From Lachnospiraceae bacterium (GTDB taxonomy: Bacteria; Bacillota; Clostridia; Lachnospirales; Lachnospiraceae), in assembly GCA_017437785.1 (NCBI GenBank), contig JAFRXH010000084.1:1-39133 (forward strand): a stretch of 39,133 bases of DNA, given 5' to 3'. A program made the translations under genes and the position numbers. The notes beneath the pieces are model-generated. The model did not search any database. It was not told where the DNA came from and saw only the letters and a list, made by a program, of their open reading frames with translations. Below are positions 7,784 through 24,936 of this stretch, piece by piece; the first letter of the stretch is position 1, and each line of letters starts with the position of its first letter.

Positions 7784-7805
7784 TTATGATCCTCCCCGTA
7801 CCACC

Positions 7806-7818: not shown

Positions 7819-7826
7819 CGCGCAGC

Positions 7827-8804: not shown

Positions 8805-8857
8805 TTTTCTTTCCTCGTATGAACTGTATCCACGTCCCATCCCCACTGTGTCAATTA

Positions 8858-10177
8858 CTACAGTCGCCAGTAAATGTAATCTTTCTTTGCTTCATACTCG
8901 CTGCGCGATAAGATGCCCTTAAGGTCCATGAGGACTTTCTTTTTATTGGCCGAATTGAAGAAGGAGTCTATTTTGACCGGGTCCAGTTTATTGAACTCGT
9001 TGTGGGCAACGGCTATTATCACCGCATCCATGTCCTTTACTTCATCCATGCTGCCAAAGCTTATCCCGTAGAGGCGCTTTGCTTCGGAGGCATCCGCTGC
9101 GGGATCCACCACCAGCGGTGTGATACCGTATTCGCCCAGCTCGTTGACTATATCAATAACCTTGGTATTCCTGGTATCGGGGCAGTTCTCCTTAAAGGTA
9201 AAGCCCAGTATCGCCACACGCGCATTCTTTACGGCTATGTCCGCCTTGATCAGATCCTTTACCAGGCTCTCTGCCACGTAACGGCCCATGTCATCGTTTA
9301 TCCTGCGGCCGGAAAGGATTATCTGCGAATGATACCCCAGCTCCTCGGCCTTGTATGTAAGGTAGTAGGGATCCACGCCTATGCAGTGGCCGCCCACCAG
9401 TCCGGGATAGAATTTAAGGAAATTCCATTTGGTCCCGGCAGCCTCCAGTACTGCGCGGGTATCTATGCCCATGCGGTGGAATATCATGGACAGCTCGTTC
9501 ATGAAAGCTATATTGATATCCCTCTGGCTGTTCTCTATAACCTTTGCGGCTTCGGCCACCTTTATCGATTCGGCACGGTATACCCCGGCCTCTACGACCA
9601 GCTCGTATACCTTAGCCACGGTATTGAGTGTCTCTTCATCCATACCGGATACGATCTTTGTTATTGTCTCCAGACGGTGTACCTTATCCCCGGGATTGAT
9701 ACGCTCCGGCGAATAGCCTATCTTAAAATCAACGCCGCACTTAAGTCCGGATTCCTTCTCAAGGATGGGGACGCATATATCCTCCGTAACGCCCGGATAT
9801 ACAGTGGATTCGAATACTACCACACTGCCTTTGGTCAGGTTCCTGCCCAGTATGCGGCTGGCTCCTTCTACCGGCGTAAGGTCCGGTGTATGATCGTCAT
9901 TTACCGGAGTGGGCACGGCCACTATATGGAAGCGCGCTTCTTTCAGACGCTCCTCATCCGCGGTAAAGTCCACCGTAGTGTTCTTTATCACCTCATCGCC
10001 CACCTCTTTGGTGGGATCGCTCCCGCCCTTATAAAGTGCGATCTTTTCGGCATTCAGATCAAAACCTATTACCTTGATCTTTTTTGCAAAAGCCACGGCA
10101 ATGGGCATACCCACATAGCCAAGGCCTACCAGTGAGAGTTTTTCCTCACCGCTTAAGAGCTTTTCGTATAAAGTCAT
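8858..10177 (-). CDS. tviB: UDP-N-acetylhexosamine 6-dehydrogenase, TviB/WbpO-like
   Basis: This 439-residue nucleotide-sugar dehydrogenase oxidises C6 of UDP-GlcNAc or UDP-GalNAc to the uronic acid in two NAD-dependent steps. The sequence shows the NAD loop GLGYVGMP (18-25), VAVPTPV (about 86-92), FESTVYPG (about 122-129) and the catalytic Cys at about 265 in GGHCIGVDPYYLT. The C-terminal Rossmann domain begins ARVAILGFTFKENCPDTRNT. It resembles the TviB/WbpO group more than UDP-glucose dehydrogenase. RBS AGGAG lies eight bases before the ATG. Neighbouring tviC completes the route to UDP-GalNAcA. The product would make the polymer anionic. Confidence 0.92.
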   Translation of the reverse strand: MTLYEKLLSGEEKLSLVGLGYVGMPIAVAFAKKIKVIGFDLNAEKIALYKGGSDPTKEVGDEVIKNTTVDFTADEERLKEARFHIVAVPTPVNDDHTPDLTPVEGASRILGRNLTKGSVVVFESTVYPGVTEDICVPILEKESGLKCGVDFKIGYSPERINPGDKVHRLETITKIVSGMDEETLNTVAKVYELVVEAGVYRAESIKVAEAAKVIENSQRDINIAFMNELSMIFHRMGIDTRAVLEAAGTKWNFLKFYPGLVGGHCIGVDPYYLTYKAEELGYHSQIILSGRRINDDMGRYVAESLVKDLIKADIAVKNARVAILGFTFKENCPDTRNTKVIDIVNELGEYGITPLVVDPAADASEAKRLYGISFGSMDEVKDMDAVIIAVAHNEFNKLDPVKIDSFFNSANKKKVLMDLKGILSRSEYEAKKDYIYWRL

Positions 10178-10213: not shown

Positions 10214-10927
10214 TCAGCTAAAAAAATTATATCTGATGATACAGTAGATAGCCCTGACAGCATCCTTCCATCCTATCTTCTTCCCCTGCTCGAAAGTACG
10301 GGGATGGTAAGAGATGGGGATCTCGTAGATCCTGCATTTTTTCTTTGCTATCTTTGCAGTAACCTCCGGCTCAAAACCGAAGCGATTCTCCTTAAGCTTT
10401 ATGGACTGTATCACTTCACGCTTAAACATCTTGTAGCAGGTCTCCATATCCGTAAGTGACAGATCCGAGCAGATATTGGAAACCATGGTAAGGAACTTGT
10501 TTCCGAACTCGTGATAAAAGCCGTCCACACGGAATTTATTCCCGCGCAGGTATCTGGAACCGTATACCACATCGGCATCGGCATTCCCGTTGATAAAGGG
10601 CTCGATCAGCTTGTTGAACTCGTTGGGATCGTATTCCAGATCCGCATCCTGCACGATCACCAGATCCCCTGTTGCGGCCTGAAAGCCGTGACGCAGTGCG
10701 GCGCCCTTGCCGCAGTTACGCTTATGAAAAAGCAGGATATCTATCTTATCCTTAAGCTTATCTTTAAGAAGCTCCCTTGTCCCGTCGGTCGAACCGTCAT
10801 CCACTACCACTATCTCGGTCTTAAGGCCGCAGGAACGCACTTTATCAAGTACTGTCTCAAGCGTATCCACTTCGTTGTAGCAGGGGATTATCACCGAGAG
10901 TACCAGACTGTCTTTAGTCAGACTCAT
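10214..10927 (-). CDS. GT2 family glycosyltransferase, DPM1-like
   Basis: This 237-residue GT-A enzyme has SVIIPCYNEVDTLETVLDKV at the N-terminus, VVVDDGSTDGT, GKGAALRHGF and the metal/donor motif QDADLEYDP (about 93-101). There is no transmembrane region at the C-terminus, unlike the adjacent GT2. This is the dolichol/polyprenyl-phosphate mannose synthase type. Such proteins usually transfer a hexose to a polyprenyl phosphate or act early in glycan assembly. It overlaps the previous GT2 gene by 14 bases, with its RBS inside that gene. Confidence 0.88.
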   Translation of the reverse strand: MSLTKDSLVLSVIIPCYNEVDTLETVLDKVRSCGLKTEIVVVDDGSTDGTRELLKDKLKDKIDILLFHKRNCGKGAALRHGFQAATGDLVIVQDADLEYDPNEFNKLIEPFINGNADADVVYGSRYLRGNKFRVDGFYHEFGNKFLTMVSNICSDLSLTDMETCYKMFKREVIQSIKLKENRFGFEPEVTAKIAKKKCRIYEIPISYHPRTFEQGKKIGWKDAVRAIYCIIRYNFFS

Positions 10928-11861
10928 TTTCCCTCTCCTTTTTATAGATCTCTTTTATCACATACTGCGGTGAATTATTAAGGCTTATATATATACGGCC
11001 CACATATTCTCCTAAGAGTCCCAGCATTATCATGATCATCCCGCCGAAGAATACGAGTATCGCCGCAAGAGAAGCAAAACCCTGTACGCGGTCGGGCAGT
11101 ATAAAGTGCTGGATTATTATCACTATCCCGTATACGAAGCCGGCGATGGCTGCAATTATGCCTATTACCGTAGCTATGCGCAGCGGCTTTACGGAAAAGG
11201 AAGTGAAGCCGTTCATCCAAAGATCCAGCAGCTTCTTTAAGGTGTATCCCGAACTTCCTATCTCACGCGCGCGGTGATCCACATCAACATTGACTATGTT
11301 GTTGGTAGAGCGCAGCACCAGGCCTATCACATAAGGATAGCTGTTTTCGTAGCGTATCATGTCGTTTACGATGTAACGCTTAGCCGCAAAATAGCTCGAA
11401 ACCTGCAGGGTCTTAGGCTTGCCCAGCATAAAACGCGCCATCATCTCGTTAACATGGGATCCGAAATTCCTGAAAGCAGAATGCTTTTTATGATCGTATT
11501 TTGCATATGCCACATCAGCTCCGTTATCGAGAGCCGTAAGCAGGCGGTCCACCTGATCTGCCGGAGTCTGTCCGTCATCGTCAAGGCATACCACATAATC
11601 GCCCTTTGTCTGGCGCAGTCCCGCCATCAATGCGGAATGCTGGCCGAAATTCCTGGCAAAATCAATGACCGTTACATTGCTGTTCTTCTCAGCGATGCCT
11701 TTTATCACCGAAATGGTATCGTCCGGCGAGCAGTCGTTTACCAATACCAGTTCCCAGCTATATTCCTTAAGGGTATCCATTTTTCTTTTGATCTCTTCGA
11801 CTACCGCCTCTATCGTCTGCTGCGAACGGTAGCAGGGGATCACAAAACTAAGCAGCTTCAT
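10914..11861 (-). CDS. Polyprenyl-phosphate glycosyltransferase, GtrB/ArnC/CsbB-like
   Basis: This 315-residue GT2 has the family hallmarks SFVIPCYRS, LVNDCSPDDT, RNFGQHSALMAGLRQ and LDDDGQTPAD (about 94-103). Two C-terminal membrane helices follow (about 229-251 and 264-288). This layout is that of GtrB, CsbB and ArnC, which load one sugar onto undecaprenyl phosphate at the inner face of the membrane. The GtrA-like domain (18064 gene) and two GT-C-like proteins in the same operon supply the expected flippase and outer-face transferases. wecE and a GNAT nearby suggest Fuc4NAc as the sugar, which is an inference. Its ATG overlaps the GNAT stop by one base. Confidence 0.9.
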   Translation of the reverse strand: MKLLSFVIPCYRSQQTIEAVVEEIKRKMDTLKEYSWELVLVNDCSPDDTISVIKGIAEKNSNVTVIDFARNFGQHSALMAGLRQTKGDYVVCLDDDGQTPADQVDRLLTALDNGADVAYAKYDHKKHSAFRNFGSHVNEMMARFMLGKPKTLQVSSYFAAKRYIVNDMIRYENSYPYVIGLVLRSTNNIVNVDVDHRAREIGSSGYTLKKLLDLWMNGFTSFSVKPLRIATVIGIIAAIAGFVYGIVIIIQHFILPDRVQGFASLAAILVFFGGMIMIMLGLLGEYVGRIYISLNNSPQYVIKEIYKKERENESD

Positions 11862-12379
11862 CAGAACTTAAGCTCCATATGATATATCTTTTCTTCCCGG
11901 CCTTCATAGTCCCTGATCTGTGTAAGCTCCGGTATTATCTTAAAACCTCTTAGCGTGTACATCCTGTAAGCCACCTCATTACCTGCGATAACGCGGAGGC
12001 TCACGCTCTTAAGCCCCATATCCTCACAGGCATGCTTAAGGCTCAGATCCAGTACCTCGGGCCCATAGCCCTTACCCACTGCATCCGGCTCACCTATAAA
12101 GATCCCGAATTCCGCCGTGGCCTTCTCTCTGTCTATATGATGAAAATACTGGCTGCCTATGGCACGGCCGCCGTCTTTTACCACTATGATATACTGCTCG
12201 ACCAGACCCTTTTCCACCTTTTCGCTAAGCCACTGTCTGTGGACCTCTTCCGTTAAGGGCGTTCGTATTATAAAATGCTCCATCACATGCGGAGCATTGC
12301 GCCAACGGCAGACATCCGCGGTATCATCCGCGGTTATGGGGCGTAAATATAACCTGTTGCTTTCCAGTCTTTTTATCAT
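11861..12379 (-). CDS. GNAT acetyltransferase (RimJ/RimL-type), possible amino-sugar N-acetyltransferase
   Basis: This 172-residue GNAT begins with RLESNRLYLRPITADDTADV. FGIFIGEPDAVGKGYGPEVL carries the acetyl-CoA loop (about 108-116), and the C-terminal NEVAYRMYTLRGF is typical of RimJ/RimL-like enzymes. In this operon the nearest biochemical need is N-acetylation of the 4-amino sugar made by WecE, the job WecD does in enterobacterial common antigen synthesis. The sequence is not an obvious WecD homologue. It overlaps both neighbours (four bases upstream, one downstream), showing tight coupling. Confidence 0.85.
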   Translation of the reverse strand: MIKRLESNRLYLRPITADDTADVCRWRNAPHVMEHFIIRTPLTEEVHRQWLSEKVEKGLVEQYIIVVKDGGRAIGSQYFHHIDREKATAEFGIFIGEPDAVGKGYGPEVLDLSLKHACEDMGLKSVSLRVIAGNEVAYRMYTLRGFKIIPELTQIRDYEGREEKIYHMELKF

Positions 12380-14130
12380 TCCACAATATATACCACAAGG
12401 TTCCCGGGCAGTTCTTTGACCGCCTTAAGGCCCCTGCCGTATCTTTCTCTGAGATATGAATCCATAACGTCACTCTCAAGGCCGTCCCCCTTACGGAAGA
12501 CCATCTTAAACCCGCCCTTTTTAAACAGGTCGAACCTGTCTTCATAGCCGAAGGCTCTCAGCTTCTTATCTTCAAGAGGGCTTAGATACTGCCAGCCTCC
12601 CATGATGATACCGTTACCCACCCTGTCTGTTTCATAAACATAAGCGGTATGATATACGGTGGCATAAGTCTCCGCCACAAATAGGGTAGTGGCGCAGGAA
12701 TCCATATAAGAGTATAACACATCATCCTCATTATTTACAGTTATTTGTTCATCATAGACATCCTTAAGGCCGGCTGTCACATTAAAGGCCTGCGACACCA
12801 CAAAAGTAAGTATCGCCCCTTCTATGGCGTAGTATACCTGCCTCCATTCCTGCGTATAACGCAGCACCATGCCGCCCAGCATAAAGCACTGCGCCATGAT
12901 AAGCGATACGATCACCCGCTCCGGGGTGCGTCCTTTCCATATCAGATATCCGTGCAGGGAAAGATGCAGGATAAAGCAGCCTATAGAAAACAACACTCCC
13001 CAGCCTTTGCCCCGAATAAGCGAATTGGAAAGCGCCAGCGCGTACATGAGCACAATCCCCATGGCGTAGACCAGCTCTTTTCCATCGCTTGTAAGATAGA
13101 ATCGTCCCAGCGAACGCAGCACATCCTTAAAACGCTCCATACCCGCAAGCTGCCTGCCCTCCTCACGGTAATCGGCCATGGCCGCAAGCGTGGCTGTATC
13201 GGCGCCTTCGACCGGCAGCAGATCGTACTCGCGGTAGAAGGGGTAATCCTCATCACTCACACCAGCCTGCTTATAATGCCTGCGGGCCTCGATGCTCTCC
13301 CACACCCCGGTATAATCATAAAGCTGCGTTCTGGCGTCATTTAACTTAAGGTATTCGCGCCAGCTGCCGCCGGCATATGCTATTGTATTGATGATAAACA
13401 TTACGGCGAAGGCCGCGATAAAAAAGATCAGCGGCTTTTTTAAGGCCGCGCGCCCTTTCTTATCTTCGATGAAAGCAAGCAATATCACCGCAGCCGCAAA
13501 GGGGAGCAGCATCAAAAACACCTGCTGCCTTACCTGCTGGCATATAAGCAGCAGCACGACACCTCCGGTCATATCTTCATCCATCATAAGCCACAGCCCG
13601 CCGGCTGCAAATACTGCGGCGACCAGCGTATAATGCGGCATGATATACATGGGATACATAAACCACAGATAAAGCCCGGATAACATACAGAGTATAAAGA
13701 TCTTTATCAGATAAGCTTTGTCGCTCTTCATGATACTTAAGCTGATGATCAGAAAAACAGCTGCCGGAGCAGCGCATAAAAACAGACCGTACCAGGGCAC
13801 GATGGGTATTACCGTATAAAGCAATGCCAGGATCCCCGAAAGCACAGCCCCCATATACACGGTATGCAGATCGGGACTGCCGCTGTAGGCTCCAGAAAGT
13901 ATGTCCCTTATCTGGATATCGTCGTTAAGGGCGTATACCGGGGTCTTAAAAAAAAGAGGGATCAAAAAGAATATGATGGTGAGCAGCACCGGCAAACCTG
14001 TACTTAACAGCAGCTTTTTCCGGGAAGCCTTATCCCCATCCTCTGCGGTTGATACGCTCTCTGTAAGTTCCTGTCCTTCATCCTCTGCCGGAGCCTGCTC
14101 TATCTGCTCTCTTTCCTCATCCTTACTCAT
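12376..14130 (-). CDS. Polytopic membrane protein, probable GT-C-type glycosyltransferase
   Basis: This 584-residue protein has an acidic cytoplasmic N-terminus (about 1-36) and then around ten to twelve hydrophobic spans up to about residue 440. A large C-terminal segment (about 450-584) probably lies outside the cell. The first outer loop contains YALNDDIQIRDI; adjacent Asp residues in the first loop are the hallmark of GT-C enzymes that use polyprenyl-phosphate sugars. The family lacks a name I can recall, so the function rests on topology and context. It lies three bases after wecE and overlaps the GNAT gene by four. It may transfer the sugar loaded by the GtrB-like enzyme onto the envelope polymer. 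Confidence 0.75.
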   Translation of the reverse strand: MSKDEEREQIEQAPAEDEGQELTESVSTAEDGDKASRKKLLLSTGLPVLLTIIFFLIPLFFKTPVYALNDDIQIRDILSGAYSGSPDLHTVYMGAVLSGILALLYTVIPIVPWYGLFLCAAPAAVFLIISLSIMKSDKAYLIKIFILCMLSGLYLWFMYPMYIMPHYTLVAAVFAAGGLWLMMDEDMTGGVVLLLICQQVRQQVFLMLLPFAAAVILLAFIEDKKGRAALKKPLIFFIAAFAVMFIINTIAYAGGSWREYLKLNDARTQLYDYTGVWESIEARRHYKQAGVSDEDYPFYREYDLLPVEGADTATLAAMADYREEGRQLAGMERFKDVLRSLGRFYLTSDGKELVYAMGIVLMYALALSNSLIRGKGWGVLFSIGCFILHLSLHGYLIWKGRTPERVIVSLIMAQCFMLGGMVLRYTQEWRQVYYAIEGAILTFVVSQAFNVTAGLKDVYDEQITVNNEDDVLYSYMDSCATTLFVAETYATVYHTAYVYETDRVGNGIIMGGWQYLSPLEDKKLRAFGYEDRFDLFKKGGFKMVFRKGDGLESDVMDSYLRERYGRGLKAVKELPGNLVVYIVE

Positions 14131-14133
14131 ATC

Positions 14134-15270
14134 TTATGCGTAAAACTCCTTTACGCTGTCGATTATATACAGATTCTCTTCTTCCGTAAGTCCGTAGTAC
14201 ATCGGCAGGCGCAGCAGCCTGTCGCTTTCCTTTGTCGTGTATTTATCCTCACCGGCAAAACGTCCGTATTTCTTACCTGCGGGTGATGAATGAAGCGGCA
14301 CGTAATGGGATACCGCCAGTATGCCTTTTCCGGCCAGATGATCCTTAAGAGCTGTCCTCTCTTTCAGATCCGCAGTCTTTACATAGAACATGTGCGCATT
14401 GTGAACGCAGCCTTCGGGCACAACGGGAAGTTCCAGCTTTCCCTGATCTGCCAGGTCCTTAAACTCCTTATAATACGTGTTCCAGATCTTTAATCTGGCA
14501 TTGTTTATCTCATCCGCCATCTCAAGCTGTGCATACAGATAAGCGGCATTCATGTCGCTGGGAAGGTAGGAAGAGCCCGCTTCCTGCCAGGTGTACTTAT
14601 CAACCTGTCCGCGGTAGAAACGGCTGCGGTCCGTTCCCTTCTCCCTTACTATCTCTGCCATATCCGCATAGGTATCATCGCGCAGCAGCAGCGCCCCGCC
14701 TTCTCCCATGCTGTAATTCTTGGTCTCATGAAACGAAAAGCAGCCCATGTCGCCTATGCTGCCAAGCGCCTTTCCCTTGTAGGAAGCCATCACACCCTGC
14801 GCCGCATCCTCCACCACATAAAGGGAATGTCTTTTTGCTATATCCATTATTGTATCCATCTCACAGGCAACGCCCGCATAGTGGACGGGAACGATGGCCC
14901 TGGTCTTTTCGGTGATGGCTGCCTCTATCAGCTTTTCATCTATGTTCATGGTATCGGGTCTTATATCCACGAATACCGCCTTTGCGCCTCTTAAAACAAA
15001 TGCATCCGCCGTAGATACAAAGGTATAGGAAGGCATGATCACCTCATCGCCTTCTTTGATATCAAGAAGCAGTGCCGCCATCTCGGTGGCATGTGTGCAG
15101 GAAGTGGTGAGCAGGGCCCTTTTAACTCCGGTGCGCTCCTCTATCCAGGCGTTGCACTTCTTTGTATATGCGCCGTCGCCGCAGATCTTTTCCGCTGCGA
15201 TGCACTCCTTTATATAATCCAGTTCTTTGCCCGTATGTGGCGGTACGTTAAAATTGATCTTCATCATCAT
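14134..15270 (-). CDS. wecE: dTDP-4-amino-4,6-dideoxygalactose transaminase WecE
   Basis: This 378-residue PLP enzyme of the DegT/DnrJ/EryC1 family is strikingly like enterobacterial WecE (RffA). Shared stretches include GDEVIMPSYTFVSTADAFVL, DTMNIDEKLIEAAI, VPVHYAGVACEMDTIM and VVEDAAQGVM. The PLP lysine is K184 in HETKNYSMGEGGA. It converts dTDP-4-keto-6-deoxyglucose plus glutamate to dTDP-Fuc4N. The donor-making RmlA and RmlB are not in this window. Three Met codons begin the frame. The first overlaps the upstream stop (ATGA), while the third (15264) sits at better spacing from AGGAA. PseC is a less good fit. Confidence 0.92.
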   Translation of the reverse strand: MMMKINFNVPPHTGKELDYIKECIAAEKICGDGAYTKKCNAWIEERTGVKRALLTTSCTHATEMAALLLDIKEGDEVIMPSYTFVSTADAFVLRGAKAVFVDIRPDTMNIDEKLIEAAITEKTRAIVPVHYAGVACEMDTIMDIAKRHSLYVVEDAAQGVMASYKGKALGSIGDMGCFSFHETKNYSMGEGGALLLRDDTYADMAEIVREKGTDRSRFYRGQVDKYTWQEAGSSYLPSDMNAAYLYAQLEMADEINNARLKIWNTYYKEFKDLADQGKLELPVVPEGCVHNAHMFYVKTADLKERTALKDHLAGKGILAVSHYVPLHSSPAGKKYGRFAGEDKYTTKESDRLLRLPMYYGLTEEENLYIIDSVKEFYA

Positions 15271-17000
15271 TTCCTTTCGTATATCACAAAACCTTTTTGG
15301 TCATATATCTTTTCATATCCGTTATTATATAGGAACGCGGATAAATATGAAAGCTTTTTATCCTCCGCTGCTTCGCTGCGCATGCTGCTTTCGGCTTCCT
15401 GTGTGAGCACGCAGACGGGATATCCCTTTATCTGCGCCAGTTCTTCCTTATACTGCTCTGCGGGATAACTCTCAAGATCCGGCCAGGCTGTGGAAACCGC
15501 AGGCGGCATGTTCATTATATAATTAAGCCCCGGAATATCCCCATAGGTGAGCATGGGCTCTCCTTTAGGATATGTTATAGCTATCATATCACATACATTC
15601 TTTATAGAAATGAACCTCTCATAGGAAGTACACATCCCCTGCAGCATAACGGGGCCTTCCCTGCCTATCCTGTATTCACGCCAGGTCCCGTCCGTGCCGT
15701 CCTTAAATGCAAAATTAACATGGAAGAGCGCACTCTGCACCAGCAAAAGCAGTGTAAGCGACACTCCCATAAAAAGCAGCGGAAAATACCAGCATCTGTC
15801 CCTGCCGCGCAGCCGGATGATCCCCGCAAAGAGATGCACTCCCACCGGCATCAGCAGATACATACAGTTAATGCAGGAATAAAGATGATTATTGCTGCCA
15901 AGAGGCGTGATGAGCTGGCTTATCAGTGCCAGAAGAGCCAGGCCCTTTTCCTCTGCGGCAAACTTCTTATCGATCAGCACCCATACATCAAGCACCATCA
16001 GTAATATCAGCATCACCACGGATATGCGGAAGATCGCACCCACGTTATGGTATTTAAAGTCGTATACTCCGTTACGGAAATAATAGAAGAATATCAGGCC
16101 TATCCCTCCGCTGTATACAAACTGCGCGGCAGCCTTCATCTTTGGCTTTATCAGCTTAAACATTATGCTTCCCGCTATCACGCCGCATACAGGTATCAGG
16201 GCATAGATCAGATTTCCCAGATAATTATCCGCTGCGGAAAGCAACATATCCTTAAGCGTATATCCGCCTTCCCCGCTGCTGCCGTGAAGAAGAGCCGCTA
16301 TCCAGGCACTCATGCGCATTATGCCTTCCGTTCCGCCGCTTATAAACATCAGCAAAAATACCACTGTCGCTCCCGCGAAATATCCGCCCACACAGCAGAG
16401 GATATCCGCCGCCAGTCTCTTAGCCTGCTTATCCCGCAGGTCTTCCCATATCACATAGATTATCAAGGCACAATGGGTAAGATTTGATATCCTCACCCCC
16501 AGCCCAAGGCCCAGCACCAGTCCTGCCAGCGCCATAAAACGCCTGTCCTTTTTGCCCATCGCATAGAAGAGGATCAGTGCTCCGGTAGTGATCGTCAGAT
16601 AACTTAAATGCTGATATAATATTACGGAAGGGCTCCAGTTAAGTCCCAGCGCGATGAGCAGTGCCGGAAACAGGATATACGGATGTATGCGGTCCTTAAG
16701 AAAGAAATAAACCATTATGGCAGTTCCCGCCGGAACAAGGCTGCAGAGGAGTTTTAAGCCTATAAGCCTGCCGCCGCATATCAGATAAAAGCCCCTTCCA
16801 AGGAGATTTGCAAGAAATGTTGCAAAATGCCAGCTGCTTAGATCACTGTCAAAGAAAGCATAATTGCAGGCGCTGTACATGGTATCCGAAAGATCGGTCC
16901 CCTGTCCTGCACCCACCGTTGCAAATAAAAAAAGCAGCAGGGGAAAAACGACCATACTGACAGTCCCGTTTACTCCTGTAGCTTTCCTTTCCTTACTCAA
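15267..17000 (-). CDS. Polytopic membrane protein, probable GT-C-type glycosyltransferase
   Basis: This 577-residue protein has roughly eleven hydrophobic segments up to about residue 420 and a C-terminal soluble region of about 150 residues. The first outer loop (about 32-60) carries TDLSDTMYSACNYAF, with acidic residues placed as in GT-C transferases. Architecture parallels the 12376-14130 protein, but I see no close sequence match, so the two are probably paralogues in role, not recent duplicates. It could add a polyprenyl-phosphate-linked sugar outside the membrane. A polymerase-like role is an alternative, since no Wzy is otherwise recognisable. It overlaps both neighbours by four bases. 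Confidence 0.72.
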   Translation of the reverse strand: MSKERKATGVNGTVSMVVFPLLLFLFATVGAGQGTDLSDTMYSACNYAFFDSDLSSWHFATFLANLLGRGFYLICGGRLIGLKLLCSLVPAGTAIMVYFFLKDRIHPYILFPALLIALGLNWSPSVILYQHLSYLTITTGALILFYAMGKKDRRFMALAGLVLGLGLGVRISNLTHCALIIYVIWEDLRDKQAKRLAADILCCVGGYFAGATVVFLLMFISGGTEGIMRMSAWIAALLHGSSGEGGYTLKDMLLSAADNYLGNLIYALIPVCGVIAGSIMFKLIKPKMKAAAQFVYSGGIGLIFFYYFRNGVYDFKYHNVGAIFRISVVMLILLMVLDVWVLIDKKFAAEEKGLALLALISQLITPLGSNNHLYSCINCMYLLMPVGVHLFAGIIRLRGRDRCWYFPLLFMGVSLTLLLLVQSALFHVNFAFKDGTDGTWREYRIGREGPVMLQGMCTSYERFISIKNVCDMIAITYPKGEPMLTYGDIPGLNYIMNMPPAVSTAWPDLESYPAEQYKEELAQIKGYPVCVLTQEAESSMRSEAAEDKKLSYLSAFLYNNGYEKIYDQKGFVIYERK

Positions 17001-18067
17001 GATAAATAAAACTCCTTATACCAGCGCGCAAATTCTCTGAGACCGGTCCTGATATCCGTAGACGGCCTGTAGCCGAAATCACGCTCTAAAGCAGAGGTAT
17101 CCGCATAGGTCACAGCCACATCACCCGGCTGCATGGGAAGAAGCTCCTGATGGGCCTTTATGTCAAAATCAGCTTCCAGCACTCCGGCCGACTTAAGCTC
17201 CTGAGCCAGGATGTCTATGAACTCCATCAGATCCACCGGCCTGGAATTCCCTATATTGTAGATAGAATAAGGGGCAAGGGGCAGTCCGTCCTCTCCCTTC
17301 TTCTTTTCCGGGGCGCCCTGCATCACCCTGATGATGCCCTCCACCACGTCGTCAACATAGGTAAAATCCCTGCGGCAGTTGCCATGATTGAATATCTTTA
17401 TCTTTTCGCCCCGGCGCAGCTTATCGGTAAAACCGAAGTACGCCATATCCGGCCGCCCTGCGGGGCCGTATACGGTAAAGAAGCGCAGCGCCGTGGAAGG
17501 TATCTCATATAATTTGCTGTAGGCATGGGCCAGCAGTTCATCACTCTTTTTGGTAGCCGCATACAAAGACACCGGATGTTCCGTGGGTGCATCCACCCTG
17601 TAGGGTATATCCGTGGAATCCCCGTATATCGAGGAGGAAGATGCATACACAAGATGCTCGGTATCAGCGTGGCGGCAAGCCTCCAGTATACGGTAAAAGC
17701 CCATGACATTGGCTTCCATATAGGCATCGGGATTGACTATGGAATAACGCACCCCCGCCTGGGCAGCCAGGTTTACCACCACTCTTATATCATTCTTTTC
17801 AAAAAGCTCCTTTATGAAAGCCTCATCCGCTATGCTCTTTTTGTAAAAGATCCAGCTGCTGTCAGAGGTCTTTGCGGCTTCCTCTATCTGTTTCAGACGA
17901 TATTGCTTTATGGCCACGTCATAATAGTCGTTTACGTTATCAACGCCTATTATGGTCATATTCTTATGCCCTGTGCTCTTTAAGAGCGAAAGGACCAGAT
18001 TGGCGCCGATAAAGCCGGCAGAACCGGTGATGAGTATGCACTTATCAGACAGGCTTATCTGCTTCAT
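16997..18067 (-). CDS. UDP-glucuronate 4-epimerase-like SDR (CapI/LpsL type)
   Basis: This 356-residue extended SDR has NAD motif TGSAGFIGANL (14-24), VNLAAQAGVRYSI (about 97-109), the Ser-rich SSSSIYGD, the YAATK catalytic pair and LRFFTVYGPAGRPDMAYFGF. AGVRYS, GPxGRPDMA and KIFNHGNCRRDFTYVDD are typical of UDP-glucuronate 4-epimerases, which supply UDP-GalA. UDP-GlcA itself would have to come from a UDP-glucose dehydrogenase outside the window. It overlaps the fusion gene and the GT-C-like gene by four bases each. The N-terminus is about ten residues longer than usual but causes no conflict. Confidence 0.87.
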   Translation of the reverse strand: MKQISLSDKCILITGSAGFIGANLVLSLLKSTGHKNMTIIGVDNVNDYYDVAIKQYRLKQIEEAAKTSDSSWIFYKKSIADEAFIKELFEKNDIRVVVNLAAQAGVRYSIVNPDAYMEANVMGFYRILEACRHADTEHLVYASSSSIYGDSTDIPYRVDAPTEHPVSLYAATKKSDELLAHAYSKLYEIPSTALRFFTVYGPAGRPDMAYFGFTDKLRRGEKIKIFNHGNCRRDFTYVDDVVEGIIRVMQGAPEKKKGEDGLPLAPYSIYNIGNSRPVDLMEFIDILAQELKSAGVLEADFDIKAHQELLPMQPGDVAVTYADTSALERDFGYRPSTDIRTGLREFARWYKEFYLS

Positions 18068-19968
18068 TCTGCCTTTTCCTTCTTTTTAGCCTTATCCGGA
18101 TCCTTAAAGATCCAGAGCTTGCTTAAGATATAGTTGACCACGATAACTACGATGCTGGCTATGAGTATCTTTACCAGCTTATCATTCCATTTGAGCAGTG
18201 TAACGCCCACAAACATGATAAGCTCTTCGAGTCCGAAGGAGAAAAGCCTTGCAGCCACAAATTCCAGGAATTCCTTCATAATGGGCTTAAAGCCTTTCTT
18301 CTCGCTGTGGAATACGAATATCCTGTTTATAACATATGCAAATACCACCGTTATGGTCCAGCTCACAGCGTTTCCGACCAGCGTACGCGGTGTCTCTTCC
18401 AGGAAGGAAAAAACAATATCCGCAAATATTATGTATGTTACCCAGCTTACCACCGTAGCGATAAAACCGGCTATCAGATAATCCCATACTTCCTTCTTTG
18501 CATAATAGATGCCCAGTGCCCAGTCACACAGATCCTCAAATACCTTAAAGATGATCTGGCGCACTGCATCGATAATGCAGCCGGCTATGAAGATCACCAG
18601 CACCGTGGCAAGAAGATGCACCGGACGCATTGCATGCCTGGGTGCAAATACATTAAACCATATGGGCCATTCGTTCTCGAGATACAGATGTGCATGTATA
18701 AGATACACGCCGAAAGTACAGGAAGCTATCTTCGTGATGACTGCTGCCGCCTTGCCTTTTACCGGCTTCATGTTAACAAATACCATGAACAGACCAATGC
18801 TTGAAAGCAGTACCAGAAGATGGTTGTAATCATCCACCAAAAGTGCGGCATTGCCGAAATGAGCTCCGGCGATCAGGCCGTTCTCCAGCGCATACATGAA
18901 CAGTATATACGGTACTATCAGCAAAGACGAAACAACGTAGAGCAGCGCCGATCCTGATTTCTTTTTGCAGAAAGGCAGGCCGTATAAGCGTATATAAGCA
19001 GCCAGTACGTACAGGGTCAAAAACCACTGTATACCGCAGCCGTGGTCCTCGAGTCCCATCATATGCATGGGGAAGATGCTCTTGAACGCACAGGTAAATA
19101 CCAGAAGGCATATCAGTATAAATCCGTGCTGCAGCTTGTTAAGCGCTTTAAAGCCGCGCCCTAAGAAAGGAGCTATCAGCATGAGTATCATATACGCGCT
19201 GGCAAACCAGTAATGACCGTTGCTCACCGGGAATAACAGATACTGGATCTCAAAGAGGTTCATGTGCTCGTTAAGATCCTCTATGCCTGTTGCAAGACAG
19301 ATCGCACCTATCAGCACGCTGTAGAAGAATATCTCGCACCAGAGTTTAATGAACTTGCGAAGCGAAAAGCGGCTGTCCACGGAATAGTAGCCGCTGATCA
19401 TAACATATACGTTAACGGAAGCGAAACACAGCGCCTCCACTGCCCAGAATGCTATATTTGCCGGGGTCTTGTCCGTAGAAAGAGGATTTAACAAAAAGCC
19501 GTTGCCCAGATAATGCATGGTGATTATCATGAGCATGGCTATTATGCGAAGTATCTCGAAACGCCCGTCCCTTTCTTTTGCAGGGGCCGGTTTAAGCTTA
19601 TACTCCGGCACGTCCACGGGCACAAGCTTTTTATACTTATCCTTAAACTTAAGCTTAAGGGCATTAAGCATCTCGGCCTCTATGCCCTGTCCGCGGAATT
19701 CTTCGGATACGCTTAACGACACCAGCCCAGTGCCCTCTTCATCCTCAGAAGGGATGATACGGGCCTCGCCCAGTGCCATAAAGAAATCCATATAGACCAG
19801 TTTATCGGTCTCTTCATCTGCAAGCAGCGCCTCAAACCAGGCCCTGTCGTTTTCAGGATCGTCCTTTTCCAGACCGAAGGATGAGCGTCTTAACTCCTTA
19901 TCCTTCATCCAGTTTAAATATCTGCCCCGGTCCGTAGGAAGGGTTTTTCTCAGATAATGATGGTTCAT
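18064..19968 (-). CDS. Three-domain fusion: GNAT-like + membrane acyltransferase 3 + GtrA-like flippase domain
   Basis: This 634-residue protein joins three usually separate modules. Residues 1-120 form a GNAT-like domain with the acetyl-CoA loop SVSEEFRGQGIEAEML (about 86-101). Residues 136-480 form an acyltransferase-3 domain with about ten spans and the conserved Arg and His in FEILRIIAMLMIITMHY (R141, H152). Residues 497-625 form a four-helix GtrA-like domain with YVINRIFVF and a closing NYILSKLWIF. A Lys-rich tail follows. Acyltransferase-3 proteins O-acylate glycans; GtrA proteins are thought to flip polyprenyl-phosphate sugars. The fusion could couple sugar flipping with acetylation. 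It lies 12 bases after pseB. Confidence 0.88.
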   Translation of the reverse strand: MNHHYLRKTLPTDRGRYLNWMKDKELRRSSFGLEKDDPENDRAWFEALLADEETDKLVYMDFFMALGEARIIPSEDEEGTGLVSLSVSEEFRGQGIEAEMLNALKLKFKDKYKKLVPVDVPEYKLKPAPAKERDGRFEILRIIAMLMIITMHYLGNGFLLNPLSTDKTPANIAFWAVEALCFASVNVYVMISGYYSVDSRFSLRKFIKLWCEIFFYSVLIGAICLATGIEDLNEHMNLFEIQYLLFPVSNGHYWFASAYMILMLIAPFLGRGFKALNKLQHGFILICLLVFTCAFKSIFPMHMMGLEDHGCGIQWFLTLYVLAAYIRLYGLPFCKKKSGSALLYVVSSLLIVPYILFMYALENGLIAGAHFGNAALLVDDYNHLLVLLSSIGLFMVFVNMKPVKGKAAAVITKIASCTFGVYLIHAHLYLENEWPIWFNVFAPRHAMRPVHLLATVLVIFIAGCIIDAVRQIIFKVFEDLCDWALGIYYAKKEVWDYLIAGFIATVVSWVTYIIFADIVFSFLEETPRTLVGNAVSWTITVVFAYVINRIFVFHSEKKGFKPIMKEFLEFVAARLFSFGLEELIMFVGVTLLKWNDKLVKILIASIVVIVVNYILSKLWIFKDPDKAKKKEKAE

Positions 19969-19980
19969 CGCACTCCCCCG

Positions 19981-20967
19981 TTATACGGTCTTAAGCAGTT
20001 CTTTTATCTGATCCACGCTGAGCCACTCGGTATTATTGCCGGAACTGTAGGAAAAGCCGTCGGGCACTTTCTTTCCGCTGGGTCTGACAGCTCTCTTGTC
20101 ACTCCATACCATCTGGGGATAAACGATAAAGTGCTTCTCATACTCATAGGTGGTCATGGAATCCTCTACGGTTACCATTATCTCATGCAGCTTCTCGCCT
20201 TCCCTTATGCCAACCTCGGGCTTATCGCAGCCGGGAAGCATAGCCTCTGCCAGATCGGTTATCTTAAACGAAGGGATCTTGCTTATGAAGGTCTCGCCGC
20301 CTACGCTCTCTTCAAGTGCCTTTAATACCAGCTCCACTCCCTGCTCAAGGGATATCCAGAAGCGTGTCATGCGGTAATCGGTGATAGGCAGGCTCTTTTC
20401 GCCCTTATCTATAAGATTCTTAAAGAAAGGGATGACCGAGCCCCTGCTGCCGGCCACATTGCCGTAGCGCACTATTGAAAATGCCAGATCACCTGCGCCG
20501 GCATAGGCATTGGCTGCGATAAAGAGCTTATCGCTCACCAGCTTGGTACCGCCGTAAAGGTTTACGGGGTTTACCGCCTTATCGGTCGAGAGTGCCACAA
20601 CCTTCTGCACATCGCTGTCAAGTGCGGCTTCTATTACGTTCATAGCCCCGTGGATATTGGTCTTGATAGCTTCGTTAGGATTGTATTCACAGGCCGGCAC
20701 CTGCTTTAAGGCTGCGGCATGCACTATATAATCCACGCCTTTTAAAGCCCTGCGCATGCGGTCCAGATCACGCACATCGCCTATAAAGAAACGCAGTCTG
20801 TCGGCATATTCCTTAAATTCGTTCTGCATCACAAACTGCTTATATTCATCCCTTGAATAAATGATTATCTTCTTAACATCCGTACGGGTAAGGGCATAGC
20901 GGGTAAAGCATTTTCCGAAAGAACCCGTTCCGCCGGTGACAAGTACTGTTTTTCCGTCAAGGATCAT
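19981..20967 (-). CDS. pseB: UDP-N-acetylglucosamine 4,6-dehydratase (inverting), PseB-like
   Basis: This short-form dehydratase of 328 residues has TGGTGSFG (11-18), IYSRDEYKQ (about 36-44), FIGDVRDLDRM, HAAALKQVPACEYNP and LSTDKAVNPVNLYGGTK with the catalytic Asp-Lys and Tyr-Lys sets. The C-terminal FSYSSGNNTEWLSV is characteristic of PseB/FlaA1. It converts UDP-GlcNAc to the 4-keto-6-deoxy-AltNAc (or QuiNAc) form. No pseudaminic-acid genes (pseC, pseF, pseI) are in the window, so a deoxyaminosugar of the glycan is a more likely end product. RBS AGGTGAG lies six bases upstream, and a strong candidate promoter starts the operon here. Confidence 0.92.
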   Translation of the reverse strand: MILDGKTVLVTGGTGSFGKCFTRYALTRTDVKKIIIYSRDEYKQFVMQNEFKEYADRLRFFIGDVRDLDRMRRALKGVDYIVHAAALKQVPACEYNPNEAIKTNIHGAMNVIEAALDSDVQKVVALSTDKAVNPVNLYGGTKLVSDKLFIAANAYAGAGDLAFSIVRYGNVAGSRGSVIPFFKNLIDKGEKSLPITDYRMTRFWISLEQGVELVLKALEESVGGETFISKIPSFKITDLAEAMLPGCDKPEVGIREGEKLHEIMVTVEDSMTTYEYEKHFIVYPQMVWSDKRAVRPSGKKVPDGFSYSSGNNTEWLSVDQIKELLKTV

Positions 20968-20998: not shown

Positions 20999-21027
20999 AT
21001 TATATCAATTATAACAGCTGATTACAA
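20999..21027 (-). promoter_or_regulatory. Strong candidate promoter for the pseB-led glycan operon
   Basis: On the minus strand TTGTAA (21022-21027) and a perfect TATAAT (20999-21004) are 17 bases apart. A second TATAAT-like box lies in the spacer. The -35 box overlaps the last codon and stop of glf. The ATG of pseB is 32 bases after the -10 box. Confidence 0.65.
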
Positions 21028-22137
21028 GTTTTCCTTAGCATCCTTAAGTGCCAGGGCCACTACCTTGTCCATGTCCAGATAGCGGTATATTCCCAGTCTG
21101 CCGCCGAAGAGCACATTGCCTTCTTCCTTTGCCAGGGCGCTGTACTTCTCATAAAGGGCGTTGTTCTTTTCATCATTGATGGGATAATAAGGCTCATCAC
21201 CCTTTTTCCAGGTGGCCGGATATTCCCTGGTGATCACGGTCTTAGGATTCACATTACCGTTCTGTGCACCAAATTCAAAGTGCTTATGCTCAATAATGCG
21301 GGTATAGGGTATCTCATACTCGGTGTAGTTTACCAGGGTATTGCCCTGGTAGTTCTCCATATCCAGCACTTCCGTTTCAAAGCGCAGGCTCCTGTATTCC
21401 AGGGTGCCGTATCTGTGATCATAATACTCATCCACCATGCCGGTGAATACTTTTTTATCAGCCAGTGAATCGTAATACGCCCTGTCTGCAAAATAATCGC
21501 AGCCGGTCCTTACCTCTATCCCTTCAAGCAGACGCTCCACGATTTTTGTGTAGCCGCCTATGGGTATGCCCTGGTACGTATCGTTAAAATAATTGTTATC
21601 ATAAACAAAGCGGACAGGCAGACGTCGTATTATGAATGCCGGAAGCTCCCTGCAGGGGCGTCCCCACTGCTTCTGCGTATAGCCCTTGATAAGCTTTTCG
21701 TAGATATCACGGCCCACCAGGCTTATGGCCTGCTCCTCTAAATTCTTCGGCTCTGTAATACCGGCTTCCTTCTTCTGTTCCTCTATCTTTGCCTTTGCTT
21801 CCTCAGGTGTCCTTACTCCCCACATCTGATGGAAGGTGTTCATGTTAAAAGGCAGATTGTACTGCTCGTCTTTATAACGGGCTATGGGACAGTTCGTGTA
21901 TCTGTTAAATTCCGTAAATCTGCCCATATAGTCCCACACGGCCTTATCCGATGTATGGAAGATATGCGGGCCGTATTTATGCACCTGTATGCCTTCTATG
22001 TCTTCGCTGTAGATATTACCCGCAATGTGATCGCGTTTTTCGATGACCAGCACCTTTTTCCCGGCCTGCTTCGCCTCATGCGCGAATACCGCACCGTAGA
22101 TCCCGGCTCCCACTATCAGATAGTCGTATCCGCTCAC
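21022..22137 (-). CDS. glf: UDP-galactopyranose mutase
   Basis: This 371-residue flavoenzyme interconverts UDP-Galp and UDP-Galf, supplying galactofuranose. It shows the FAD loop IVGAGIYGAVFAHEA, the family signatures EKRDHIAGN and KYGPHIFHT, and NLPFNMNTFHQMWG. TQKQWGRPCRELP follows, then RLPVRFVYDNNYFNDTYQGIP. The C-terminal LFGGRLGIYRYLDMD is also diagnostic. The start is GTG at 22137. The RBS AGGAGG lies eight bases before it, within the last codons of clpA, whose stop is three bases away. Translation is therefore likely coupled to clpA. Confidence 0.96.
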   Translation of the reverse strand: MSGYDYLIVGAGIYGAVFAHEAKQAGKKVLVIEKRDHIAGNIYSEDIEGIQVHKYGPHIFHTSDKAVWDYMGRFTEFNRYTNCPIARYKDEQYNLPFNMNTFHQMWGVRTPEEAKAKIEEQKKEAGITEPKNLEEQAISLVGRDIYEKLIKGYTQKQWGRPCRELPAFIIRRLPVRFVYDNNYFNDTYQGIPIGGYTKIVERLLEGIEVRTGCDYFADRAYYDSLADKKVFTGMVDEYYDHRYGTLEYRSLRFETEVLDMENYQGNTLVNYTEYEIPYTRIIEHKHFEFGAQNGNVNPKTVITREYPATWKKGDEPYYPINDEKNNALYEKYSALAKEEGNVLFGGRLGIYRYLDMDKVVALALKDAKENL

Positions 22138-22140
22138 TGA

Positions 22141-24597
22141 TCAGTCCTCCTCTTTCTTGCCGCTGCTGCGCTTTACCTTCTGGCTTAGCTTTTTGCCCGT
22201 TTCGGCTTTCTTGGAACCTTTTGTTTTCGGTCCCGGTTTCTTGGGATCTGTTTTCCCGGGCCCGGGATTTTTTGTACCTGCCTTCCTGGGAGCTGTTTTA
22301 TTGCCGTTTATCAGATCCCCGGGTTCTATGGTCTTTTTGACAGCCGGAGTCTGTACCGTGCGCTTGCCTTCCAGCGCGGGCTTACCGTCCTTTATGGTAA
22401 GATAAGCCTCCCCGCCGTTTTTCAAGCTGCCGAAAAGTATCTCCGATACGAACAGCGGCTTGACCTCACTGTCTATCACGCGCTCTATCTCGCGTCCACC
22501 GTAATCCTTTGTCACGCCTCTTTTAACAATGTACTCCCTGGCCGCTTCCTCCACATGTACGGTAACCTTGCGGCTCTTAAGCCTTTCCGAAAGCTCACGT
22601 ATCTTTTTATCGGTGATCTGCCCGGCCATCACGGCGTTCATATGGTTAAAGGTCACGACTGCACTTAAACGGTTACGGAATTCAGGAGTAAATACACGCT
22701 TTACTTCTTCCATCATCACGCTGTCGTTGAATTTAGACGCGCCAAAACCTATATTCTGCTTGCCTATCATCCTGGCTCCGGCATTACTGGTCATGATTAT
22801 TATTACGTTGCGGAAATCCGCCTTCTGTCCGCGGTTATCCGTAAGCGATGCATAATCCAGCACCTGCAGCAGCACGTTATAGATATCGGGATGCGCCTTC
22901 TCTATCTCATCCAAAAGCAGCACGCAGTGCGGCGTTTTACGTATGGCATCGGTCAGCAGGCCTCCGTCATCGTATCCCACGTATCCTGCGGGAGAACCTA
23001 TAAGCTTTGATACCGTATGCTTTTCGGCATACTCGCTCATATCAAAACGTATGAATTCCACGCCAAGCTCTTTAGCCAGTACCTTGGCCACTTCGGTCTT
23101 ACCCACGCCGGTAGGTCCCACAAAAAGGAAACCTGCTATAGGCTTGTTATCTGCCAAAAGCCCTGCACGGGACATGCAAATGGCATCCACTATCCTGCGC
23201 ACAGCCTCTTCCTGTCCGTAGATACTGCCGGTTATACGTTCGTACAGATCCTTAAGCGAATCCAGCTCGGACTGCGCCGCCGTCTGTCTGGGAATATTGC
23301 CCACCTCTGCCAGTACTGTCTCTATCACATCCTTACCCACGGTCTGCTTCTTCTGACCGCTTATGGGATGCATGCGCCTGTATGCAGCCGCCTCGTCTAT
23401 AAGGTCTATCGCCTTATCGGGCAGATATCTTCCGCCTATGAATTCCTTACTCAGATGCACCGCATGCGAGAGTACATCCTTTCCGTACTTCACATTATGA
23501 TAATGCTCGTAACTTGATTTTATTCCCTCTAATATCCTTAAAGCTTCATCTTCATCGGGCTCTTTTATGTCCACCTTCTGGAAACGCCTGGAAAGAGTGG
23601 CATTCTTTGCAAAGAACTTTTTATGCTCATCATAAGTAGTGGCTCCGATAAAACGGATATTGCCGCCTTCCAGATAGGGCTTCATCATATTGGAAGCATC
23701 CATTCCGCCGCTTCCGGAAGAGCCGGCCCCTATCAGATTATGGATCTCGTCTATGAACACGATGGGTGCGTTCATGTCTGACAGGGCGTCCATTATATCG
23801 AGAAAGCGTTTTTCAAAATCACCCCTGTACTGGGTCCCTGCCAGCAGTGCGCCCACCTCCAGTGAATAGACCGGAACTTTCTTGAGCGGATCGGGCACGT
23901 CTCCCTTTTCTATCCTGTCCACCAGCCCGTACACTATGCTTGTCTTTCCCACGCCGGGTTCGCCTATCAGCAGCGGGTTATTCTTCTCCTTACGCAGAAG
24001 TATGCGTATTATGCGGTCCAGCTCGGCGTCGCGCCCCACCAGGGTGTTATGCTCGCCAACCTCTTCGTTCATAAGCCTTGCATATTCCAGTACGAAATCT
24101 TCCGGCCACTGGGCATCATCGTCAAATTCATCATAGGTGTCCGGCACATCGGCCTTATCATGTGAAAGGAACTCCAGCGCAGATGCCAGATCCTCTATCT
24201 TGCCTACCTGCTGGCTTAAAAAGAATTCCGCAAAACTCTCTTTCAATCTGCCCATGGCCAGTATCACATGCTGCAGGCAGATATACTTGCTGCCCATATG
24301 CTCTGCGATCTCCACCGATGATTCTATCATCGCTGCAAAAGAATCGGAGATGCGCTCACCTATGCTCCTGGTATCATTTTCCGCCTTCAGGGCGGGCAGC
24401 ATGTTCTTAAAGAAATCCTCAAGATCCTCCCTGAGCACCTTGATACTGCCGCCGTTCATTATCACAGCCCTGTTAAACAGAGGAACATCCAGGCACGCAT
24501 AAAGCACATGCTCGGGAGTCACGAACTCGCTCCCAAGCTCCGATGCCTTAAACAGCGTACTCTGCATTATCTTTTCAGTTATATCGTCAAAAACCAT
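22141..24597 (-). CDS. clpA: ClpA, AAA+ unfoldase of the ClpAP protease, with basic C-terminal tail
   Basis: This 818-residue Hsp100 protein has a double Clp N-domain (about 1-145). The first AAA module has Walker A GEPGVGKT (212-219) and FIDEIHN (281-287). The second has GPTGVGKT (494-501) and LLLDEIEKAHPD. The ClpP-docking loop IGF (616-618) is intact. There is no ClpC-type middle coiled coil, which identifies ClpA. It unfolds substrates for ClpP (not in the window). After the usual end (about 746) comes a 70-residue tail very rich in Lys, Pro and Gly, for example KNPGPGKTDPKKPGPKTKG. The start lies nine bases after clpS, with GAGGAT as RBS. Confidence 0.95.
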   Translation of the reverse strand: MVFDDITEKIMQSTLFKASELGSEFVTPEHVLYACLDVPLFNRAVIMNGGSIKVLREDLEDFFKNMLPALKAENDTRSIGERISDSFAAMIESSVEIAEHMGSKYICLQHVILAMGRLKESFAEFFLSQQVGKIEDLASALEFLSHDKADVPDTYDEFDDDAQWPEDFVLEYARLMNEEVGEHNTLVGRDAELDRIIRILLRKEKNNPLLIGEPGVGKTSIVYGLVDRIEKGDVPDPLKKVPVYSLEVGALLAGTQYRGDFEKRFLDIMDALSDMNAPIVFIDEIHNLIGAGSSGSGGMDASNMMKPYLEGGNIRFIGATTYDEHKKFFAKNATLSRRFQKVDIKEPDEDEALRILEGIKSSYEHYHNVKYGKDVLSHAVHLSKEFIGGRYLPDKAIDLIDEAAAYRRMHPISGQKKQTVGKDVIETVLAEVGNIPRQTAAQSELDSLKDLYERITGSIYGQEEAVRRIVDAICMSRAGLLADNKPIAGFLFVGPTGVGKTEVAKVLAKELGVEFIRFDMSEYAEKHTVSKLIGSPAGYVGYDDGGLLTDAIRKTPHCVLLLDEIEKAHPDIYNVLLQVLDYASLTDNRGQKADFRNVIIIMTSNAGARMIGKQNIGFGASKFNDSVMMEEVKRVFTPEFRNRLSAVVTFNHMNAVMAGQITDKKIRELSERLKSRKVTVHVEEAAREYIVKRGVTKDYGGREIERVIDSEVKPLFVSEILFGSLKNGGEAYLTIKDGKPALEGKRTVQTPAVKKTIEPGDLINGNKTAPRKAGTKNPGPGKTDPKKPGPKTKGSKKAETGKKLSQKVKRSSGKKEED

Positions 24598-24606
24598 TTT
24601 TTATCC

Positions 24607-24936
24607 TCATTCACTCTCTATATCTATGCGGAAAGGATAACCTTCCGCCCTGGCCCTGTCCATGGCCAGCCGCTGCTTTGTCCTTGCTATATCATATATG
24701 TATGTAGCTATAACGGCCCTGCCTTCATGATGCACCTTAAGCATCAGCTGCACGGCTTCTTCATTGCTCTTACAGAATATATCCTTTAATATCTCTACCA
24801 CGAATTCCATGGTAGTGACATCATCATTGAGCATTATCACCTTGTAAAGCGAAGGTTTTCTGGGCTTAATACGAACAGAGGACTGCAAACCGCAGCCCTC
24901 ATCCTGCCTGACCTTTCTGCCTGTCTTATCCGCCAT
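24607..24936 (-). CDS. clpS: ClpS, adaptor for ClpA
   Basis: This 109-residue protein has a basic N-terminal extension of about 28 residues followed by the ClpS fold: YKVIMLNDDVTTMEFVVEIL (32-51, with the NDD and Met that line the N-degron pocket). LKVHHEGRAVIATY and IARTKQRLAMDRARAEGYP follow. ClpS delivers proteins with bulky hydrophobic N-terminal residues to ClpA and redirects its specificity. It is encoded between the small membrane protein gene (two-base gap) and clpA (nine-base gap). The extension would be the part that engages the ClpA N-domain. Confidence 0.95.
   Translation of the reverse strand: MADKTGRKVRQDEGCGLQSSVRIKPRKPSLYKVIMLNDDVTTMEFVVEILKDIFCKSNEEAVQLMLKVHHEGRAVIATYIYDIARTKQRLAMDRARAEGYPFRIDIESE

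Follow-up and report, generated by a model that had tools for sequence, protein, structure and literature searches.

An N-terminal GNAT-derived part, an acyltransferase-3 domain and a GtrA domain joined in one chain at a putative surface-glycan locus of Lachnospiraceae

We analysed a stretch of 39,133 nucleotides (the window) from a Lachnospiraceae bacterium, contig JAFRXH010000084.1 of assembly GCA_017437785.1, for a minus-strand gene that runs from 19968 to 18064 and encodes a chain of 634 residues (P0001) in which a GNAT-derived part, an acyltransferase-3 (AT3) domain and a GtrA domain follow one another. The 634 codons contain no internal stop, and the AlphaFold2 model of the full chain reached a predicted local distance difference test score (pLDDT) of 91.8, with helix 448–490 extending almost up to the first GtrA helix (492–519) in one confident chain. 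The assignment thus rests on the open frame, the Pfam domains, the model and the same architecture in the genus. The AT3 domain (PF01757; residues 137–465, 18574..19560, minus strand) is complete (E 1.4e-22; 80.6 bits, cut-off 31) and carries R141-X10-H152 in its first transmembrane helix, conserved without exception in the 31 genus members aligned; the R-X10-H motif is essential in OafA (PMC7448272). C-terminal to it, the GtrA/DPMS transmembrane domain (PF04138; residues 497–621, 18106..18480, minus strand) was matched over profile positions 2–117 of 117, that is as a full domain (E 9.3e-19; 68.2 bits, cut-off 26.1). The NCBIfam model gtrA_1 (NF037976), which describes one subfamily and not the whole family, gave 17.4 bits, under its cut-off of 50. 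Both the complete AT3 domain with its Arg and His and the GtrA-like domain had been described in a first-pass annotation of this DNA, and both descriptions hold.

The N-terminal fifth of the chain is GNAT-derived but shortened. Over residues ~5–118 (19615..19956, minus strand) the model has the GNAT fold from beta1 to beta5 and ends after the fifth strand, without alpha4 and beta6. The acetyl-CoA loop of GNAT proteins follows the motif Q/R-x-x-G-x-G/A, from which the window's loop, R-G-Q-G-I-E, departs by a Glu at the final Gly/Ala position; the loop is complete in relatives (e.g. R-G-R-G-I-G in locus L002). The GNAT matches from Pfam, all inside residues 6–112, scored 18.2, 16.7 and 14.5 bits, below their respective cut-offs of 25.4, 27 and 20.7. 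The domain search proposed earlier therefore places AT3 and GtrA above the Pfam cut-offs but leaves the GNAT scores under threshold. The fold itself came out as GNAT, as that annotation had it, but a working GNAT domain in the window's protein is not supported.

The ATG of the fusion gene lies 12 bases past the end of a pseB-like gene and directly follows GGGGGAG, and its stop overlaps the start of the next gene (ATGA), so that the fusion gene very probably belongs to a co-transcribed run. A pattern scan of both strands found 26 promoter-like patterns (25.3 expected) and 30 terminator-like patterns (14.7 expected). Upstream are PseB, an inverting UDP-GlcNAc 4,6-dehydratase (19981..20967, minus strand, as are all genes in this paragraph; TIGR03589, 524.9 bits, cut-off 407.75), and the UDP-galactopyranose mutase Glf (21022..22137; TIGR00031, 429 bits, cut-off 303.75). 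Directly ahead of these glycan genes stand a ClpA-like gene (22141–24597) and clpS (24607–24936), as in loci L076–L081. Downstream, the overlapping gene encodes a short-chain dehydrogenase/reductase (SDR) sugar epimerase/dehydratase (16997..18067; Pfam Epimerase, E 1.7e-52). It is followed by GTC577, a polytopic protein of 577 residues and candidate GT-C glycosyltransferase (15267..17000), by a WecE-like dTDP-4-amino-4,6-dideoxyhexose transaminase (14134..15270; TIGR02379, 641.9 bits, cut-off 434.85) and by a second polytopic protein of 584 residues, GTC584 (12376..14130); neither polytopic protein has a Pfam hit and each has 9 hydrophobic segments. Then come a separate N-acetyltransferase, GNAT2 (11861..12379; Pfam Acetyltransf_3, E 1e-21), which is likely the partner of WecE, and GT2a, a GtrB/ArnC-like polyprenyl-phosphate sugar transferase (10914..11861; Pfam GT2, E 1.2e-29). 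GT2a has two C-terminal hydrophobic segments (222–240 and 265–283); its best NCBIfam models, ArnC (189.1 bits) and PgfS (179.1 bits), stay below their cut-offs of 529 and 500. A GtrB-like gene had been expected next to the fusion; it is indeed in the same locus but not adjacent: counted downstream from the fusion within the run, it is gene number six.

The architecture is kept through the genus, a group of mostly rumen-dwelling Lachnospiraceae. Of 35 genomes, 34 encode AT3 and GtrA in a single frame, the sole miss (G317) being listed at 72% completeness. The named relatives, to judge by their titles rumen and gut Lachnospiraceae, include strains NK4A179, NC2008 and XPB1003, with the GNAT, and AB2028, without it. 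This genus search bears out the earlier statement that three domains lie on one chain, and their order is conserved among relatives. AT3 and GtrA are encoded separately in other genera; of 28 loci collected there through the AT3 match alone, 7 have a GtrA gene immediately upstream of AT3 on the same strand. No triple fusion was seen outside the genus among the matches listed from 299 family, 392 order and 398 phylum genomes, and none of the 36 matching plasmid records spans 80% of the query.

A contig search with the P0001 sequence alone gave no matches. An alignment-based search gave 550 loci, of which the best 80, together with 15 chosen loci, make up a set of 95 (92 distinct) that is biased to GtrA-bearing loci because the query alignment contained GtrA. 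Fused AT3-GtrA was found in 22 of them, GtrA directly upstream of AT3 in 38, an AT3-GTC577 fusion in two and none of these in 33. The two AT3-GTC577 chains, each in one frame (L072 7795–10638, plus strand, 947 residues; L153 1906–4803, plus strand, 965 residues), match the window's GTC577 at E 4e-60 and 2e-53, respectively; L072 also encodes a GNAT fused to PseG (524 residues). Elsewhere (L209 1477–4470, minus strand) GtrA lies N-terminal to YfhO in one chain of 997 residues, and further frames of about 1000 residues with GtrA occur among the matches listed in the family and order searches. In the AT3 tree, a branch with a Shimodaira–Hasegawa-like approximate likelihood ratio test (SH-aLRT) value of 96 separates the fused AT3s from the rest. 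Separate origins of the fused GtrA and the AT3-adjacent GtrA genes, suggested by the first GtrA tree, were dropped because the approximately unbiased (AU) test, which left out 14 of 90 rows (12 second GtrAs, L073 and L215), did not reject a single common clade (p 0.729; that tree had the higher likelihood). Of the 34 genus loci, 15 have a second, free GtrA gene downstream of the fusion (just downstream in L082, L086, L087, L088, L089, L091, L094, L095, L096 and L097), and these second GtrAs group apart from the fused domain in the first tree.

The downstream genes recur with AT3. Of the 95 loci, 81 have a GTC577 homologue either fused to AT3 or at most three genes downstream of it, and 62 have WecE within three genes after AT3; in many loci GTC584, GNAT2 and GT2a come next. 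In the genus, 19 of the 34 loci have GT2a within the following eight genes, several contigs ending earlier. The GTC577 and GTC584 families recur in this locus type across Lachnospiraceae genera, and we suspect that both have the GT-C fold. Among their homologues, the weak Pfam matches of this kind were PMT_2 (E 0.019, in 1 of 26 for GTC577) and GT-C_AftD (E 0.064, in 1 of 24 for GTC584); GTC584 homologues gave better ones to other families, including Acyl_transf_3 (E 6.8e-05, in 2 of 24). Of a three-component glycosylation set, the locus has the GtrB-like GT-A enzyme with C-terminal segments and GtrA, with GTC577 or GTC584 as candidate GT-C enzyme. In seven loci a GNAT and the GtrB-like GT2a form a single chain of 487–501 residues (L103 16463–17938, L114 8384–9889, L121 16033–17538, L125 16282–17769, L128 16372–17841, L133 16651–18114 and L154 7339–8841).

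The GNAT part varies within the genus. Among the 34 loci it is full-length in 22, split over two frames in one (G304), shortened in six (the window, G313, G325, G329, G320 and G308) and absent from five (G299, G302, G303, G326 and G328). All six shortened members lack the alpha4–beta6 region and have Glu as last loop residue, and in G313 the loop Arg is a His as well. The full-length class includes G318 (L058/L094), in which erosion affects the acetyl-CoA loop as well as the N-x-A-S motif further along and PseB is present without PseI, PseG or PseF. The fusion of G311 (L037) carries, at about residues 72–120, a GNAT insert of ~45–50 residues with repeated CHSERSEQS units. We compared nonsynonymous and synonymous substitution rates (dN/dS) in 17 genome pairs, six of them drawn from the window's genome and the three genomes closest to it; the values are rough because many dS are near or above 1. 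In the four computable closest pairs (two were saturated) dN/dS of the GNAT remnant was 0.112, 0.116, 0.068 and 0.103, against 0.076–0.089 for AT3 (the same two pairs saturated) and 0.050–0.096 for GtrA. The G320/G308 pair of the same clade gave 0.106 for the remnant, 0.295 for AT3 and 0.116 for GtrA, and pairs with full-length GNAT gave 0.015–0.158 over the same stretch. The shortened GNAT is thus under purifying selection and is kept rather than drifting; free decay was rejected on the values of 0.07–0.12 in the closest genomes.

In many genus members the fusion is preceded by PseB, PseI, PseG, sometimes PseC, a GT2 and PseF. Representatives pass the NCBIfam cut-offs for PseI (L085) and for PseF and PseC (L084), while PseG lies just under its cut-off of 153.55 in L084 (152.2) and just over it in L072 (157.6). 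By its position after these genes, the fused GNAT occupies the place expected for PseH. Of the 22 loci with full-length GNAT, 19 have at least one of PseI, PseG and PseF within the nine genes upstream, versus none of the six with shortened GNAT (Fisher p 0.0002, the shortened genomes being close relatives). The split-GNAT genome, G304, has all three. G315 has a full-length GNAT with PseB alone left, which suggests that the Pse genes departed before the GNAT was shortened. PseF, PseI and PseG are still present elsewhere in the window's genome, on contig C97, so the pathway is not wholly lost from it. On that contig (L156 9957–11855, minus strand) PseF is joined to a LysA-like pyridoxal phosphate-dependent decarboxylase in a chain of 632 residues that adjoins PseI, PseG and an ATP-grasp-like protein. 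Outside the genus, a GNAT of the fusion type stands apart from AT3 in 3 of 73 loci, all with PseB, PseC, PseF, PseG and PseI (L119 and L121, each with a lone GNAT homologue, are such loci). In L121 a formyltransferase-like gene and a gene for a BshB1-like deacetylase (below cut-off) adjoin the lone GNAT (7426–8121 and 8177–8878, plus strand), hinting that this Pse locus makes a modified nonulosonate. Against solved structures, the GNAT sequence profile matched 3eo4 best (E 2e-11) and PseH 4xpk at E 4.2e-5.

The joining of these domains in one membrane protein suggests linked machinery for the export and acylation of surface sugars. In the explanation that we favour, to which as a whole we give an even chance, the fusion protein would be a membrane component of a conserved Lachnospiraceae surface-glycan locus. 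With cytoplasmic acyl-CoA as donor, its AT3 domain would acylate, and probably acetylate, a hydroxyl on an extracytoplasmic glycan, and its GtrA domain would help to bring to the outside an undecaprenyl-phosphate sugar made by GT2a. The substrate of GT2a would be a nucleotide sugar of the locus, the best candidate being the 4-acetamido-4,6-dideoxyhexose predicted from WecE and GNAT2, and GTC577 or GTC584 may attach the exported sugar; the fusion would hold export and acylation together. We infer that the N-terminal GNAT was recruited from a PseH-type N-acetylation step of the pseudaminic-acid genes seen upstream in relatives. In the window's clade the Pse genes except PseB would then have left the locus, and the GNAT would have been cut short at its C-terminal end, probably with loss of activity, leaving a constrained non-catalytic domain.

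Several observations weigh against this explanation. On the acyltransferase side, the RXXR motif, highly but not absolutely conserved at the third transmembrane helix of AT3 proteins (PMC7448272), is not found in the fusion, where R200-F-S-L-R204-K205-F-I-K208 offers no two Arg at the required spacing, and for 21 of the 28 AT3-match loci the flanks retrieved (up to 1.5 kb per side) contain no GtrA. GTC577 and GTC584 had no PDB match at E 1, which leaves their fold unassigned. The AT3 protein of one Salmonella prophage gtr operon is functional with gtrB missing and gtrA truncated (PMC4413052), a counter-precedent to flipping and acetylating in one step. On the PseH side, truncation and gene loss may be a single event in one clade, so that the genus table does not hold six independent cases. 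Three of four informative GNAT-less loci retain PseG (PseG only; the fifth, G302, has 340 upstream bases), the full-length GNAT occurs without upstream PseI, PseG or PseF in G004 (5.3 kb to the contig end), G315 and the eroded G318, and outside the genus 5 of 8 PseB-bearing loci (two of the eight on the same contig) lack such a GNAT. Against the PseH model TIGR03585 (cut-off 93.1) the fused GNAT of L084 scored 38.5 bits, that of L081 had no match at E 1e-5 and that of the window none at E 0.1, and the window's separate GNAT2 scored higher, at 70.1 bits; identification of the fused GNAT as PseH by hidden Markov model (HMM) was therefore rejected, as it falls below the equivalog cut-off.

How closely AT3 and GtrA work together could be read in other ways. 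In the machine proposed by the first-pass annotation the lipid-linked sugar itself is acylated while it is being flipped or immediately afterwards, the two events being coupled in a single step. The direct fusion in a single confident predicted chain, the GtrA genes beside AT3 in some other genera and the GtrB-like gene of the locus would fit it, but the published account of AT3 enzymes places sugar acylation outside the cytoplasm without fixing its stage (PMC9558356), and GtrA is missing from the flanks of three quarters of the AT3 relatives; we consider it unlikely. Conversely, the two domains may be merely co-localised or co-regulated, AT3 acylating the finished polymer and GtrA independently serving GT2a and the polytopic transferases. 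This is a possibility that we judge somewhat improbable: it agrees with their presence in one locus with a GtrB-like enzyme, with the second free GtrA genes and with the prophage precedent, but not with a fusion kept in nearly every genome of the genus nor with a GtrA-AT3 pairing that recurs elsewhere in a different gene order. That a frameshift, misassembly or chimera joined separate genes is practically excluded and was rejected: the window's genome is in 107 contigs, but AT3-GtrA is read in a single frame in 33 other genus genomes, including the records of the four strains named above, which carry strain titles and not those of metagenome-assembled genomes (MAGs).

Regarding the GNAT part, the shortened domain could still be an active enzyme or feed acetyl-CoA to AT3, as some GNATs are short; its best Foldseek match is RibT, with chains of 113–123 residues, and it is under purifying selection, but the missing alpha4–beta6 and the loop Glu of all six members, together with the loop His of G313, make this very unlikely. 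It is also doubtful that the GNAT has an origin other than PseH and N-acetylates another amino sugar of the locus, such as the WecE product. The scores below the PseH cut-off, the frequency of WecE close behind AT3 and the three full-length GNATs without upstream PseI, PseG or PseF speak for such an origin; in many loci, however, it is the separate GNAT2 that goes with WecE, and the fusion-type GNATs found outside the genus all stand in complete company of PseB, PseC, PseF, PseG and PseI. Beyond our favoured explanation, we can imagine, as a speculation with a rather low chance of being right, that AT3-only enzymes of this locus type are complexed with an undecaprenyl-phosphate-sugar flippase and an extracytoplasmic transferase, their acceptor being the newly flipped lipid-linked sugar. 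The GNAT-AT3-GtrA chain would then be the core of this complex in one polypeptide, with a captured nucleotide-sugar N-acetyltransferase on its cytoplasmic end that, in the window's clade non-catalytic but selected, may regulate or assemble the complex.

In the titles, opening abstract lines and passages that the literature search covered, with many subscription papers and InterPro architecture lists outside its scope, we found no description of AT3 and GtrA in one chain nor of all three domains together, in agreement with the first-pass annotation, which knew of none; earlier database sightings of the architecture are likely. A review of AT3 proteins names fusions to a C-terminal SGNH domain and to alanine racemase, and treats the mode of action of SGNH-less AT3 proteins, including a possible requirement for a partner protein, as an open question (PMC9558356); neither its main text nor the TmAT paper contains the word "GtrA". 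The genus-wide AT3-GtrA fusion, the GtrA-AT3 gene pairs and the two AT3-GTC577 fusions give concrete partner candidates for SGNH-less AT3 proteins, and as natural single-chain constructs they make the partner question testable. In addition, the GNAT part is a captured enzyme domain that a single genus presents as a series: intact, shortened or missing altogether.

Compared with the AT3 O-acetyltransferases Oac, OafA/OafB and Lag1 (PMC7448272, PMC9558356), the fusion shares PF01757, R-X10-H in the first helix and a glycan locus, but its partners are a C-terminal GtrA and an N-terminal GNAT, and RXXR is not strictly kept. With the three-component systems GtlA-GtcA-GtlB and CsbB-GtcA-YfhO (PMC8035078) it has in common PF04138 and, in its locus, a GtrB/ArnC-like GT2 and polytopic proteins; here, however, GtrA is a domain of an acyltransferase instead of a small free protein, and the polytopic neighbours are only candidate GT-C enzymes. 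The GNAT part resembles PseH in its fold, in its place among PseB, PseI, PseG, PseC and PseF genes in relatives and in its match to 4xpk, but differs in being fused to a membrane protein, in its low TIGR03585 score in a relative and in being shortened in the window. Finally, the GtrA-YfhO chain of L209 also joins GtrA covalently to an extracytoplasmic glycan-modification partner, with GtrA at the N-terminal end and, instead of AT3, YfhO, the known partner in the CsbB-GtcA-YfhO system (PMC8035078).

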